64,000 bases of DNA, taken from assembly GCA_950295325.1 (NCBI GenBank), contig OX485804.1, forward strand, positions 50,952,429-51,016,428, given 5' to 3'. The notes below the pieces were generated by a model. The model saw nothing but the letters and a program-made list of their open reading frames with translations. It made no database searches and was not told the DNA's origin. The position numbers and the translations under genes are program-made. Numbering within the stretch: position 1 is the stretch's first letter; the number at the start of each line of letters is the position of its first letter. This DNA comes from Polytrichum commune (lineage: Eukaryota; Streptophyta; Polytrichopsida; Polytrichales; Polytrichaceae). Shown piece by piece: positions 9,380-39,568 of this stretch.

Positions 9380-10308
9380 GATTGTTTGGGGAGTTGCATA
9401 AATACTTAACATTAATATACCAACAACCAATGAAAGCAAGGGGTAGTGAGGGTTGGAAGAAGTGGGTAGGGACAAGGTTGGAAGAATTAGATATGGACCG
9501 ATATTAGGCATGTGCACATTCCTTGAATGACCATGTTCATTGAAACTAAATTGAGGATGCTTTGGACAATCATAAAGGCTGTCAACGTAGGACTTCTTGT
9601 GTTAGTGAGTAGTTGCTTCATTTAATTTTCCTTGATTACTTTATCACGTTTTGCATGCCTCTACTTCTTTCTTGGATCACATAGTCATAATCAATTAGAA
9701 CTTACTTGAACATGATATATTAGAGGCCAAGGGAAGACCCAAAGAATGCATAAGGAAGGTTAATTTGCAAATAGGTTTAGAAAAAAACAAAAGGAAAAAC
9801 CTATGCCATGACCCACCCCAAGTCTCCAGCTAACCCCCCCCCAAAAAAAAATCTCGCTTGCGCAAACTTGGGCTAGTGCAATCTACCTAATGAAAATTAC
9901 ATCATTGCCCATGTGCCCTTGTTATTCATCCTTTCCTTAATGTATATCAAATATATAAAGGCATTTGTTATAAGAAAATTGGAATGTCATTGGACTATGT
10001 GCATAAAAATTAGCTAGAACTATCAACAATATAAACATAATCTAAATACATCTACTCTCCCTAATTGTTATTAGTCATCCAAGAGGGCACCACATGATCC
10101 TAAACTCAAGCTAATTGTTAAACCTTGGCTAGAGTTGAAGTTAACCAATTGACACACTAATTTTAGATTGAGCTATGCTCTAGTTAAAATCCAATTTTAG
10201 TTCATTTGTCTAATTTTAGTTGTAGTAGAGCTCTTGTTACCTTTGGTGAAGGCCTTTGGGTGGCCTTTGATAGCAATCAAATGTGCAGGGTGCAAGCGTT
10301 TTGGGGAA
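9380..10308. other. Upstream region of BTB locus 1, part of a duplicated block
   Basis: From about 9790 to 10308 this sequence is similar to 36900-37208 plus 37975-38169 (locus 3), and its last ~450 bp is similar to the inverse of 33230-33480 (locus 2). Shared landmarks include AAACTTGGGCTAG, ATATATAAAGGCAT, CATCTACTCT and AGTTAACCAATTGACACA. The region probably includes the promoter. A TATATAAAG at 9952-9960 is shared with locus 3 but lies about 350 bases from the ATG, so its role is uncertain. Confidence 0.5.
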
Positions 10309-11668
10309 ATGGACGACTCCAAGAATATTGAAGTTGGTGAATTTTTAGATGAGTATGCATTAACCACTACCGGATCACATTGTTGGAAATACATGATGAA
10401 GATGCTAGGAGAGGCGATCGATGCGGACATCTCTTTGAAAGTTGGAGGAGGCGAGGTGGTGAAGGCACACCGCTCAATGCTCACACTCTTTTCACCCGTC
10501 TTCAACACAATGTTCACATGTGGGATGCAAGAGCACCAAACGGGTGTTGTGGAGCTCATAGACACAGATGTTGAGGTGTTGAAATTGTTTCTAGTCCTAT
10601 TGTATTCAGGTATGAAATGCGAGAATTGAGTCATGAAGTTGATGTCAATAATGTTTGGATGGTTGCCACAATGAACGTGATAGTCGACTATGGCATCAAC
10701 CGTCCACAATGATGGGTCCAAAGCAAAGTAGTTGAAAGTGGACTAGACATGTGGACTAGGCAAACTAATGTGATGCTATTTGATTTGTTTTTCTTCATAG
10801 GTTGGTCAAAAGTGTGTTAGGGAGGTCAATTATGAGGTTGACCAAATGAGCTGATGTGGATTGATTTCATTACTTCATTATGGTTGGTTGATATATATGT
10901 TGGATATAAAACATCCATTGGAGATGATGTATATTGATCATCAAACTACTTGAATATTTTACAATATGTAATTCAAGAAATAAAATATCTTTAAAGGAAA
11001 TTACAAGATAATATACCAAAATCTAATAGTTTCACCCTATAGTTGTAGTGATAGTATAAGGGACTAGTAGCTAGGTGCTTTCAAAAATATTAGTAATCAA
11101 ATTTGTAGTGGATGGTAGTGTGCTTCAGTAAGTAATGTTATGTATATGGCAAACCTTTGAAGAATAAGCACCAAAACAATATGTGCACAAAAGTTAACAC
11201 AAGGTGTTAAAGCTATTTTTGGTCATGTTGTATGCAGGTGCGGAGTGTGAGAGGGTGTTGAAGAACGATGTCGTGGACAAACACCTCAACAAGCTTATCG
11301 ACTTGTGTTATAAGTATGAAGTAACCCATGTGTTTCCCACTTTGTCCAAATTGGTGAAGCGTTTTCTGACAATTGAAAATTGTTGTGGTTACTTTGTTTG
11401 TGCTACCGAATTTGGTCTAGATGATAATTGTGCTAACTACATTTCTAGTTACATCACAAAAAAGTGGGGTCAGGTGATAAACACTGATGGTTTCATGTGT
11501 CTAGCCCACACTCATCCCGTGCTAGTAGTCCAACTTGTGAGATTGGAAAAGGGAGAAGAAGACGAAGAAGAAGAAGAGGAAGAAGAAGAAAGAGAAGAAT
11601 CGGTGAGGCCATCATTAGGTAACAGGATGTACAAGACCTACGTTGGTAGTCACAAACGTTCGAGATAA
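10309..11668 (+). CDS. Short BTB/BACK-like protein, locus 1 (2 exons)
   Basis: Exons at 10309-10609 and 11238-11668 (GT at 10610-10611, AG at 11236-11237, phase 1) give 243 residues. Residues about 35-100 match the BTB core: DADISLKVGGGEVVKAHRSM, then FNTMFTCGMQEHQTGVVEL and LKLFLVLLYSG. Exon 2 supplies the last BTB helices (HLNKLIDLCYKYEV) and a BACK-like stretch (ENCCGYFVCATEFGLDDNCA). The C-terminus has a run of about 15 acidic residues that the paralogues lack. BTB proteins of this type commonly bind CUL3 and dimerise; the substrate is unknown. The start is the MDDSKNIEV methionine, shared with locus 3 and with MEDSKNIEV of locus 2. An extra T in the run at 10299-10302 puts the ATG at 10281 out of frame, whereas locus 2 keeps the matching ATG in frame. 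Failure to splice gives a 105-residue BTB-only product ending MKCEN. Confidence 0.75.
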
Positions 11669-31871: not shown

Positions 31872-33197
31872 CTAAAGTCTATGACTACCAAAGTAGTGTT
31901 TGTACCTAAAGTGACTTGATGGCGGTGCCACCGATTCTTCTTCTTCTGCCATTGTTGCTACTTCATCTTGCACCAATCTCACAAGTTGGACTGCTAGCAT
32001 GGGATGAGTGTGGGCTAGATCCATGAAACCATCAGTACCTATCACGTGACCCCACTCTGTTGTGATATAACTAGAAATGTAGTTAGCACAATTATCATCT
32101 AGACCAAATTCGGTAGCACAAACAAAGTAACCACAACAATTTTCAATTGTCAAAAAAGACTTCACCAATTTGGACAAAGTGGGAAACACATGGATTACTT
32201 CATACTTATAACACATGTCGATGAGCTTGTTGAGGTGTTTGTCCACGACATCGTTCTTCAGCACCATCTCGCACTCCGCACCTGCATACAACATGACCAA
32301 AAATAGCTTTGACACCTTGTGCTAACTTTTGTGCACATACTATTTTGGTGCTCGTTCTTCATAGGCTTGCCATATACATAACATTATTAAATGAAACACA
32401 CTACAAATTTGATTACTAATATCTTTGAAAGCACCTAGCTACTAGTCCCTTATACTCTCACTACAATTGTAGGGTGAAACTATTAGATTTTTTTAAATAC
32501 TAACTTGTAATTTCCATTTAATATATTGTAATTCTTCAATTACATATTCTATAAAATTCAAGTAGTTTGATGATCAATATACATCATTTCCAATGGATGT
32601 TTTATATCCAACATAGATATCAACCAACTAAAAATGAAGCAATGAAATCACATTAGCTCATTTGGTCAACCTCCCAATTGACATCCCTGATAGATTTTTG
32701 ACTAGCCTATGAAAAAATAAAATAAAACAACATCACAATAGTTTGCCCAGTCCACGTGTCTAGTCCACTTTCAACTACTTTGCTTGGACCCATCATTGTG
32801 GACGGTTGATGGCATAGTCGACTATCACTTCTATTGTGGCAACCATCCAAACATTTATGGCATCAATCTTCATAACTCAATTCTCGCATTTCATACCTGA
32901 ATACAAGAGGACTAGAAACAATTTCAACACCTCAACATCTGTGTCTATGAGCTCCACAACACCTGTCTGGTGCTCTTGCATCCCACACGTGAACATCGTG
33001 TTGAAGACGGGTGAAGAGAGCGTGAGCATTGAGCGGTGTGCCTTCACCACCTCGCCTCCTGCAGCTTTCAAGGTGACGTCGGCATCGATCGCTTCTCCTA
33101 GCATCTTCATCATGTATTTCCAACAATGTGATCCGGTAGTGGTTAATGCATACTCATCTAAAAATTCACCAACTTCAATATTCTTGGAGTCCTCCAT
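31872..33197 (-). CDS. Short BTB/BACK-like protein, locus 2 (2 exons)
   Basis: Minus-strand gene: exon 1 33197-32897, exon 2 32281-31872, intron 32896-32282 (GT-AG, phase 1), 236 residues. It is a close paralogue of loci 1 and 3. The BTB core reads DADVTLKAAGGEVVKAHRSM, then FNTMFTCGMQEHQTGVVEL. Exon 2 holds HLNKLIDMCYKYEVIHVFPT and the BACK-like ENCCGYFVCATEFGLDDNCA. The C-terminus is short (MAEEEESVAPP) and lacks the long acidic run of locus 1. The methionine at 33197 sits in a strong context (G at -3, G at +4) and matches the starts of loci 1 and 3. An in-frame ATG at 33224 would add nine residues (MCKAQAFGD). Unspliced RNA would end after MKCEN, as in both paralogues. No stop or frameshift is seen, so it looks intact. 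Role: probably a CUL3 adaptor-type BTB protein of unknown target. Confidence 0.75.
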
Positions 33198-36609: not shown

Positions 36610-38169
36610 GTAGTTATACATTCTTTTCTTGCAATTGAATTGATTTCAATTTACAATACCAAAAGTAAAGTTTAAAATTTTTGGACACCTATATTTAAAT
36701 CATGAATTGTCAGGTGTGCATCCAAAAATGGACATCAAACATGATAGTTATGTGGAGGGGACAAGGAGCATGCACTGAAGGTTCCCTTAAAAAAAATTCA
36801 AAAAAAAATTTAAAGGAAAAATATCGAGAAACCAAAGGACCCACCCAAAAAAAGTAATGATGATTAAAAGAAAGGAAAAAACAAGGAAAAAAAATCATGC
36901 AATGGTCCCACCCCCACGTTGCTAGCTCGCCCTATCATGCAAACGAGTGGGCAAACTTGGGCTAGGGCAATTTGCCTAACAATAATTACATTGCTGCCCA
37001 TGTGCCTCAACATTCACCCTTTCTAGGATGTATATTAAATATATATAAAGGCATGTGTTACAAGAACATAATTTGGAACTTGTTTGGACTATGTGCACAA
37101 AGTTAAGCTAGAACTATCAAGAACATAAATTTGAGCTACATCTACTCTCATTCATTTGTTGTTACCATCCAATGAGGGTACAATAGGATCCTAGACTCAA
37201 GGTGAACATGATCCATATTGCTCAATTTTGGGTCATTAGTTGAGGGCGTATTATAAATATTTAGAGTTTGGCAAACTCTGGGGAAGAACTAACAAGGATA
37301 ATTCATCCTTTATGTATCATATCCCTATGAAGTTGAGGTGAGGCCTTAGTAAAGGTGAAGTGTTTTTGGAAGTGAGTGTTTTCATGTTTCCATGGAAACT
37401 ATACTCTCCTCAAGAGTGGAGGTGAAGTGTTATTTGATATCTTTGATGACTATAACCATGAGCATTTCTTTCGTTAACCATTGTAGTAACTTGAGTTATA
37501 TCATCGCTTCTTGCATATCTCTACTTACTAGAGCTACAATAGACACAATGTATATGAGGGAAAGGAAGACCTAAGAAATGCAAAAGATGGGAAGGAAAGG
37601 AGAGAGAGCAGAGGAGAGAATAGGCGATCGCTTAGGGAGGAAATATGGATTTTCTTTGGTTTTCTTACACTTACTTGGTTGTAGTTAGGTTGCTAGTTTG
37701 TGTAAGCTTGCACTCAATTGGAGAAAGCACTAGGATTGGCTAAAGGTGTGAGATGGGGAAGGATATTTTGCCTTCCTTTGAATATTTCTCGTCCATTGGA
37801 ATAGGATTTTTCAACTTTTGATTTTGTGAATATTTTGGTTGCCACCTAAAGCTACTATTTAAGATGTTGTACATGTTTCTAGGTTCAACACGTATTGATG
37901 TTTTCATCTATAGGATACAATATTTAACAATTGACCAAACAATAGACACGTTAATATATCTAACCTTGGTAAGAGCTTAAGTTAACCAATTGACACAATA
38001 ATTTTAGTTTTAGCTAAGCTCTAGTTAAAAGTTGAGTTCAACTTTAGTTCTTATTCACTTTTAGATATTTTCTAAGTTTAGTTCTAGCTATGTTGTTATT
38101 ATTATTGGCGAAGGCCTTTGGGTGACCTTTGATAGCAATCAAACATGCAAGTTGCAAGCGTTTGAAGAA
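36610..38169. other. Upstream of BTB locus 3, with an insertion inside the duplicated block
   Basis: 36900-37208 and about 37975-38169 match the upstream of locus 1 (GGGCAAACTTGGGCTAGGGC, ATATATAAAGGCATGTG, GCTAGAACTATCAAGAACAT, then AGTTAACCAATTGACACA). Between them about 765 bp (37209-37974) has no counterpart in locus 1, so it was inserted in locus 3 or lost from locus 1. No inverted ends were recognised for this block. Confidence 0.5.
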
Positions 38170-39568
38170 ATGGATGACTACAGGAATGTTGAAGTCGTTG
38201 AATTTTTAAACGAGGATGTATCAACCACCAACGGGCCGCATTGTTGGATATATATGATGAAGATGCTAGGAGAGGCGATCCATGCGGATGTCACCTTGAA
38301 AGCCGCAGGAGGTGAGGTAGTGAAGGCACACCGCTCGGTGCTCACACTCTTTTCACCCGTGTTCAACACAATGTTCACATGCGGGATGCAAGAGCACCAG
38401 ACGGGAGTTGTGGAGCTCATGGACATCAATGTTGAGGTGTTGAAATTGTTCCTAATCATATTGTATTCAGGTATGAAATGCGAGAACTAGGTCATGAAGA
38501 TTGATGTCAAAACATTGTAAATGTTAGATGAACCATAACCACATTTTAAGGAAAATACTATTCTAAGCAGAAACACAAGAAATAACCAAAGCATTTCAAT
38601 ATATAACCGGTTGATATTGAAGAAATAAGGATAGCGACCCAGTTGACTCAAATTTCTCACATGACACACTTGTTAATTCTTGGAAGAATGGATGCTCCAA
38701 AAAAAGGGCCCGAGGATGCAAGCCTCCATGTTGTGTCTTTATAACCTAGTGTTGTGTTTGTAACCTTTACCCAACTTGATTTTGTGGAAAGCACGCCACA
38801 TCCAAGGACATACCTTGAAGTTGCAAAATCTCAACCTGTATTCAATTGAAACAAAGCCTCAAATGGAAATCTCCCTTGACTTGAACATGAATGTACTTGA
38901 GGAGATTCCATTCGATTTCGTAAATGAACTCATTACAATAAAATAAAAGTCAGAATCTAGTACGAAATTATATTGTCAAAAATGAAATCTTTGAATGAAA
39001 TTTTTTAAATTTTTACAATGCTTTGCCTAGACTGCCATCGGACCATTGTAGCGTGCTTCACCAAAGAATGTTATGTGTATGACAAGGCTTGTAACTTATA
39101 GAATTTCAATTTAGCTAGAGGTAGCAGCAAGGTGTGAAAACGAGGAGATGATAGTATGTTTGGTCATGTTGAAATAGGGACCGGAGTTTCTATCTATCTA
39201 TCTTTGGTCATGTTGTGTGTGCAGGTGCAGAATGTGAGACGGTGTTGAAAAAAGACGTTATGGACAAACACCTCCATGAGCTTATCAAAGTGTGTCATAA
39301 GTATGAAGTAACCCACGTGTTTCCCACTTTGACTACATTGGTGAAGAGCGTTTTGACGATTGAGAATTGTTGCGATTACATTGGTTGCACCGTCGATTTT
39401 TGTCCAAATGAGTGTACCGCTTATGTTCTCAACTACATTGAATTGAATTTTCGTCGGGTGATACATACCGACGGTTTCAAGTGCCTGGCTCACACTCATC
39501 CTGACCTAGTGGTCCTACTTGTGCAATGGAACATACCGGAAGTAGAAGCATGTAAGATTGGAAAATAA
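38170..39568 (+). CDS. Short BTB/BACK-like protein, locus 3 (2 exons)
   Basis: Exons at 38170-38470 and 39225-39568 (GT-AG, phase 1), 214 residues. The start is MDDYRNVEVVEF, equivalent to loci 1 and 2. The BTB core reads HADVTLKAAGGEVVKAHRSV then FNTMFTCGMQEHQTGVVEL. Exon 2 is the most diverged of the three after the BACK-like start: ENCCDYIGCTVDFCPNECTA, then VIHTDGFKCLAHTHPDLVVL. It ends at VEACKIGK and lacks the acidic tail. The 754 bp intron is longer than in loci 1 and 2. Near its 3' end TTTGGTCATGTTG occurs twice (about 39160 and 39203) around a CTAT repeat. No inactivating change is seen. As in the paralogues, the sequence just before the acceptor repeats the end of exon 1, and unspliced RNA stops after MKCEN. 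Confidence 0.72.

Follow-up and report, generated by a model that had tools for sequence, protein, structure and literature searches.

How does an intron come to be bordered on both sides by the same piece of coding sequence? The question is raised by a BTB gene in a 64,000-nt stretch of the Polytrichum commune genome (contig OX485804.1 of assembly GCA_950295325.1; C2:50952429-51016428 in the contig labels used here), which we call the window. Three BTB loci lie within 30 kb of one another in the window, at 10309-11668 (+), 33197-31872 (-) and 38170-39568 (+), and are numbered 1 to 3 below. At locus 1, exon 1 (10309..10609, +) runs from an ATG through the N-terminal part of the BTB domain and ends in TCAG. 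It is followed by a predicted phase 1 intron of 628 nt with GT..AG ends (10610..11237, +), placed on the basis of the reading frame and of homologous TCAG/GT and GCAG/GT sites (a slash marks a splice point or codon boundary). Exon 2 (11238..11668, +) starts after GCAG and encodes the end of the BTB domain, a BACK-like region and an acidic tail, stop included. A sequence-only reading of this DNA had proposed that the intron was born by tandem duplication and is itself the duplicated stretch. We find that the repeat at its borders is real and that little of the intron can be recognised as a duplicate, and we tentatively favour a history in which two BTB gene copies were joined.

One coding segment at both borders of the intron

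The repeat has a 51-nt core, with its left copy at 10574..10624 (+) and its right copy at 11202..11252 (+). Aligned gap-free, the two share 37 of 51 bases; 30 other offsets (-15 to +15) reach 9-21 matches, and the best partner of the left copy among 59,246 other plus-strand positions of the window, BTB loci excluded, matches at 28 of 51. We permuted the right copy, preserving its composition and holding both AGGT fixed. The 21 matches at 30 free upstream positions then had a shuffle p=5e-6 and the 8 matches at 13 free downstream positions p=0.012, and none of 200,000 shuffles reached both jointly. Among AGGT-anchored pairs from 516 window sites, a fraction of 0.0006 reaches 37, in a tail that contains the true repeats themselves. 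The cores translate as VLKLFLVLLYSGMKCEN (left) and VLKLFLVMLYAGAECER (right), and the predicted splice points fall at equivalent spots, TCAG/GT in the left copy and GCAG/GT in the right. Both the alignment of the two borders and the use of the left AGGT as donor and the right as acceptor, as the sequence-only reading had described them, are thus borne out, the splicing as a prediction. The repeat stands at both ends of a predicted intron, apparently confined to this cluster, that is a good candidate for birth through duplication or gene joining.

The repeat likely extends downstream past the core, perhaps on to about 10650 in the left copy. Anchored gapped extension in this direction is not significant (p 0.31, 0.10 and 0.39 at loci 1, 2 and 3). 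By eye, in-frame similarity runs ~20 nt further with a one-codon gap, reading CEN, a stop and VMKIDV against CER, the gap and VLKNDV in tblastn alignments at loci 2 and 3. A post hoc test of 20 nt with a small offset allowed gave p 0.32, 0.0025 and 0.049 (loci 1, 2 and 3), and a typed consensus, also post hoc, matched at 15/20 positions (p=0.0006). Anchored gapped extension upstream of the core is not significant at loci 1 and 2 (p 0.64 and 0.37). On these values we dropped the idea that the right copy continues upstream as decayed BTB code, which inspection and a gapped alignment at locus 2 had hinted at.

With the extension counted, the repeat covers about 77 of the 628 intron nt, 41 on the left and 36 on the right. 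The interior (10651..11201, +) has no significant similarity to the flanking exons: repeat-free intron stretches compared with exons 1 and 2 of each locus did not rise above shuffles (p 0.39-0.99), in tests that an old, decayed duplication could escape. Because the interior is without detectable exon similarity, we rejected duplication of the entire 628-nt intron from an exon, and with it the claim that the intron is the duplicated stretch. A genome search with the locus 1 intron, which skips very common words, matched loci 1 and 2 only; an introner-like or transposon origin was set aside because no copy appeared beyond locus 2.

The gene cluster and its paralogues

The locus 1 gene is, as far as its sequence predicts, a BTB gene of the BTB-BACK, SPOP/BPM-like kind. 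Its spliced product matches PF00651 at E=9.1e-12 and 45.6 bits, above the cut-off of 20.5 for BTB/POZ; the exon 1 frame read through to its own stop gives E=6.4e-11. The match of exon 2 to PF24570 (BACK_BPM_SPOP) is sub-threshold, at E=0.0021 and 18.6 bits against a cut-off of 27.4 that the spliced product does not reach either, and the best relatives of that product among solved structures (PDB) are SPOP chains. The unspliced frame stops at MKCEN-stop in all three loci, and bases 10610-10629 and 38471-38487 are nearly invariant between loci; intron retention would therefore yield, from each of the three, a short BTB product ending alike. Nonsynonymous divergence (Ka) is lower than synonymous divergence (Ks) in 6/6 exon comparisons. 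For exon 1 of loci 1 and 2, Ka is 0.026 and Ks 0.154, and Ka/Ks across the three locus pairs, taken descriptively, spans 0.17-0.26 in exon 1 and 0.32-0.68 in exon 2; the highest, 0.68, comes from the exon 2 comparison between loci 1 and 2. Scanning the whole window for tRNAs and against Rfam (gathering thresholds) gave no matches.

Locus 2 (31872..33197, -) has the structure of locus 1, with exon 1 at 33197-32897, an intron of 615 nt at 32896-32282 and exon 2 at 32281-31872. The two loci are 87.9% identical across 1,767 aligned columns and alike throughout, the repeat included. Locus 3 (38170..39568, +) has the same layout, but its 754-nt intron (38471-39224) contains a dispersed repeat and its right copy is disrupted. 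Exon 1, the left copy and the donor are retained, as are, within the intron, 38 nt at its start (89%) and 41 nt near its end (80%). Upstream of the acceptor, 13/40 bases of its right copy match ungapped. Aligned locally with the final 250 nt of the intron, exon 1 gave shuffle p 0.003, 0.007 and 0.57 at loci 1, 2 and 3. The bordering segments, which the sequence-only reading had suggested aligning in all three loci, can thus be aligned at loci 1 and 2, whereas at locus 3 the right copy no longer lines up on the upstream side of its splice point. Insertions disrupt it there, and TTTGGTCATGTTG is present twice (13 identical nt, 44 nt apart). As this copy is not a coding frame, splicing at GCAG/GT would be required at locus 3 if the gene works. 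The middle of the locus 3 intron differs from the others; its dispersed repeat, at 38526-38675, has at least 39 further genome matches of 73-85% identity, mostly at query positions 56-186, counted among the 40 of 146 candidates that were scored. Between loci 1 and 3, Ks is 0.38 in exon 1 and 0.97 in exon 2 (p=0.003 in a Fisher test on rounded counts; the same contrast between loci 2 and 3 gives p=0.08). With exon 1 the less diverged, the 5' part may later have undergone gene conversion between loci. The stretch 36948-37201, which precedes locus 3 by about 1 kb, is 76.5% identical over 260 columns to 9859-10110, upstream of locus 1.

The rest of the genome supplied the comparison with uninterrupted genes, within one genome and one species. 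The assembly searched comprises 407.8 Mb in 64 contigs, of which C1-C7 sum to ~406 Mb. A search with the spliced protein returned 22 matches, made up of 6 window pieces, 10 paralogue loci with E<1e-4 (two on C1, five on C5 and one each on C2, C3 and C6) and 6 weak matches with E above 0.07, one of which is the 5' part of the C6 gene; 39 BTB-profile matches were also found in the genome, part of which we inspected. An open frame crosses the position of the splice point in 10/10 of the paralogue loci, matching the expectation of the sequence-only reading that outgroup BTB genes would carry one uninterrupted copy. Since all ten read through, the intron was, most simply, gained in the ancestor that the three window loci share. 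At the C6 locus there is a frameshift upstream, along with a 24-nt imperfect tandem duplication (19/24; L018 1460-1507) that ends beside the E/V position described below.

Joining, duplication or relocation

Over 16 codons, the two copies at locus 1 show 8.5 differences at 10.5 synonymous sites and 5.5 at 37.5 nonsynonymous sites. In simulations of two histories we retained the runs that had 13-15 differences: in one both copies were coding, and in the other one half of each was unconstrained, as tandem duplication implies. The omega values, 0.15 and 0.3, were chosen by the analyst, and the segment is short. So few nonsynonymous changes arose in 7-31% of the both-coding runs versus 0.5-1.3% of the one-noncoding runs, also when T residues of the acceptor tract were shielded from change. 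With second positions also counted, the fractions were 1.5-10.6% and 0.04-0.43%. These comparisons favour copies that diverged as two coding sequences for most of their history, before joining, and the excess of synonymous differences suggests that two genes had diverged before they were brought together.

The explanation to which we give tentative preference is accordingly worded as a proposal: two already diverged BTB gene copies would have been joined, and the joining would have made the intron. The upstream copy would have been retained from its start to about 15-40 nt beyond the ...YSG codon, and the downstream copy from ...VLKLF.. onward. Because both would have carried AG/GT at the same codon, the upstream one could be used as donor and the downstream one as acceptor. 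Splicing would then restore exactly one in-frame BTB domain, and the noncoding DNA between the two remnants would have turned into the intron body. Joining draws its support from a core repeat far above chance, from copies that differ mostly at synonymous sites and from ten paralogue loci without interruption. It is also supported because the middle of the intron has no significant exon similarity, because the genome search turned up no copy of it beyond locus 2, and because the family already numbers three copies within 30 kb; the Ka/Ks ratios between loci are counted on its side as well. We infer both the splicing as drawn and joining rather than tandem duplication in place. A fusion of two BTB genes, which the sequence-only reading had named as an outcome that would speak against it, is thus the history we tentatively lean towards.

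Several observations weigh against joining. The comparisons of the interior with the exons reveal no recognisable rest of either parent gene in the intron outside the repeat. The translation of the left copy is closer to that of the right copy than to the paralogues compared by eye, so that the parents, if there were two, would be close relatives. Local tandem duplications also occur in locus 3 and beside the position in the C6 paralogue, as described above. The coding-divergence argument is based on just 16 codons of locus 1, and the both-coding simulation with omega 0.3 is itself marginal, at 0.068, or 0.0145 with the second-position count. We also considered a chimera of a C1-like 5' half and a C6-like 3' half, as exon 1 is 51% identical to the C1 paralogue and 34% to C6, and exon 2 is 48% identical to C6 and 23% to C1. 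This idea was dropped because trees and approximately unbiased (AU) tests rejected no placement tried in either half (p 0.17-0.62 and 0.13-0.65).

A predicted, possibly older intron in a more distant relative may also bear on the right copy. On contig C7, the gene C7:12317 encodes a MATH domain (PF22486, 110.5 bits) and BACK_BPM_SPOP (78.6 bits), and its BTB domain is divided at profile position 63, the exons matching the profile at 2-63 and 63-109. Its predicted phase-0 intron, CCG/GTATGT...TTTTTCATAG/GTGTTCAAGG (CATAG/GTG TTC AAG), aligns between E and V of DVE/VLKLF, 34 nt upstream of the locus 1 splice position. This E/V intron is known from the one MATH-BTB gene, with predicted splice sites. 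The right copy begins exactly at E/V, reading CAAG/GTGTTAAAG at locus 1, CAAG/GTGTCAAAG at locus 2 and CAAG/GTGTGAAAA at locus 3, so that its AG/GTG stands at the place of the MATH-BTB acceptor; CAAG/GTGT is retained in all three window loci, and locus 1 reads CAAG/GTG TTA AAG. Chance could account for the coincidence; alternatively, the end of that old intron may survive in the right half, against which counts the lack of an intron at E/V in the ten nearer paralogue loci. The sequence-only reading had held that an ancient intron at its position in distant homologues would refute it; an intron is predicted, displaced by those 34 nt and absent from the ten nearer loci. A near-identical pair of BTB genes elsewhere on C2, L051 (47.23 Mb) and L052 (45.26 Mb), has an exon starting near the same region, at BTB profile position 66.

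We weighed three other histories. A short tandem duplication after Rogers, of about 70-90 nt including AG/GT within one intronless BTB gene, followed by growth through ~550 nt of unrelated insertion, would need a single gene and is unlikely in our estimate, if still to be reckoned with. It would place AG/GT inside both copies and is in keeping with the ten uninterrupted paralogue loci, with the dispersed repeat in the locus 3 intron, which implies that interiors are able to grow, and with the small local duplications at locus 3 and in the C6 paralogue. Against it, the copies differ mainly at synonymous sites, as extremely as in 0.5-1.3% of its simulations; an insertion is needed near the duplication junction; and the repeat's left end falls on the position of the MATH-BTB intron. 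Of the tandem-duplication origin first proposed for this intron, then, the bounding repeat, the AG/GT in both copies and the uninterrupted paralogues stand, the duplication of the whole intron does not, and the substitution pattern over 16 codons argues against one copy having been noncoding since the event.

Relocation of an old intron appears doubtful to us. An intronless or spliced-cDNA BTB copy would have become attached upstream of a copy that still carried the old MATH-BTB phase-0 intron (E/VLKLF), with the junction inside that intron, and splicing would have shifted 34 nt downstream to the other AG/GT pair. This would explain the non-exonic interior with one junction; the site and phase of the C7:12317 intron match the start of the right copy, CAAG/GTGT included, and similarity between the copies upstream of E/V is not above chance at loci 1 and 2. 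An intron at E/V is seen, however, in 0/10 nearer paralogue loci, so that relocation needs its loss in them (in C6 the frameshift and small duplication lie right there). To judge by inspection, the old acceptor (AACACAAG) is weak, a coincidence could have put the repeat's left end at E/V, and the argument rests on one MATH-BTB gene whose splice sites are predicted. If relocation were true, the duplicated exon edge would be the scar of a gene joining, its upstream part running across the old exon junction. We consider it very improbable that the resemblance arose by chance, from a T-rich acceptor resembling the codons of LKLFLVLLY, or that the gene is an unspliced pseudogene. Acceptors and hydrophobic codons are both T-rich, and locus 3 has a disrupted right copy; but the composition-preserving shuffles, the similarity past the splice point and the consistently lower Ka in the exons, albeit with one ratio of 0.68, speak against both. 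What probability these four readings leave belongs to causes not thought of.

Relation to known intron gains

Known kinds of intron cover the finding, namely tandem-duplication introns, near intron pairs and introns with border repeats. In the Rogers model, an intron is gained through tandem duplication of an exon segment containing AGGT, as in ATP2A1 and in fission-yeast cases (PMC4974935). The present intron resembles these in that the same AG/GT in two copies of a coding segment would serve as donor and acceptor and splicing would leave the protein unchanged. It differs in that most of it is not recognisable as an exon duplicate and in that the copies are old, diverged like coding paralogues (PMC4974935). 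An intron of the potato RdRp gene that arose from a tandem genomic duplication likewise lies in a plant gene and has a duplicated boundary supplying splice signals, whereas here the searches made did not find the source of the interior (PMC4974935).

Near intron pairs in Drosophila, attributed to sliding or tandem duplication, share with our case a novel position near another, similar border sequences and a premature stop when unspliced (PMC2891723). The distance is 34 nt here against their limit of 31, and the other position is known here from one MATH-BTB paralogue (PMC2891723). Direct repeats on both sides of introns have also been described (PMC11782384); those are 4-30 bp long, with a mean of 11.4, whereas the core described here has 51 nt at 73% identity, with the reading frame kept.

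The source sequences of gained spliceosomal introns are rarely identified. In this cluster the source of both predicted splice sites is visible, the layout is common to three loci, and uninterrupted paralogues are present in the same genome.
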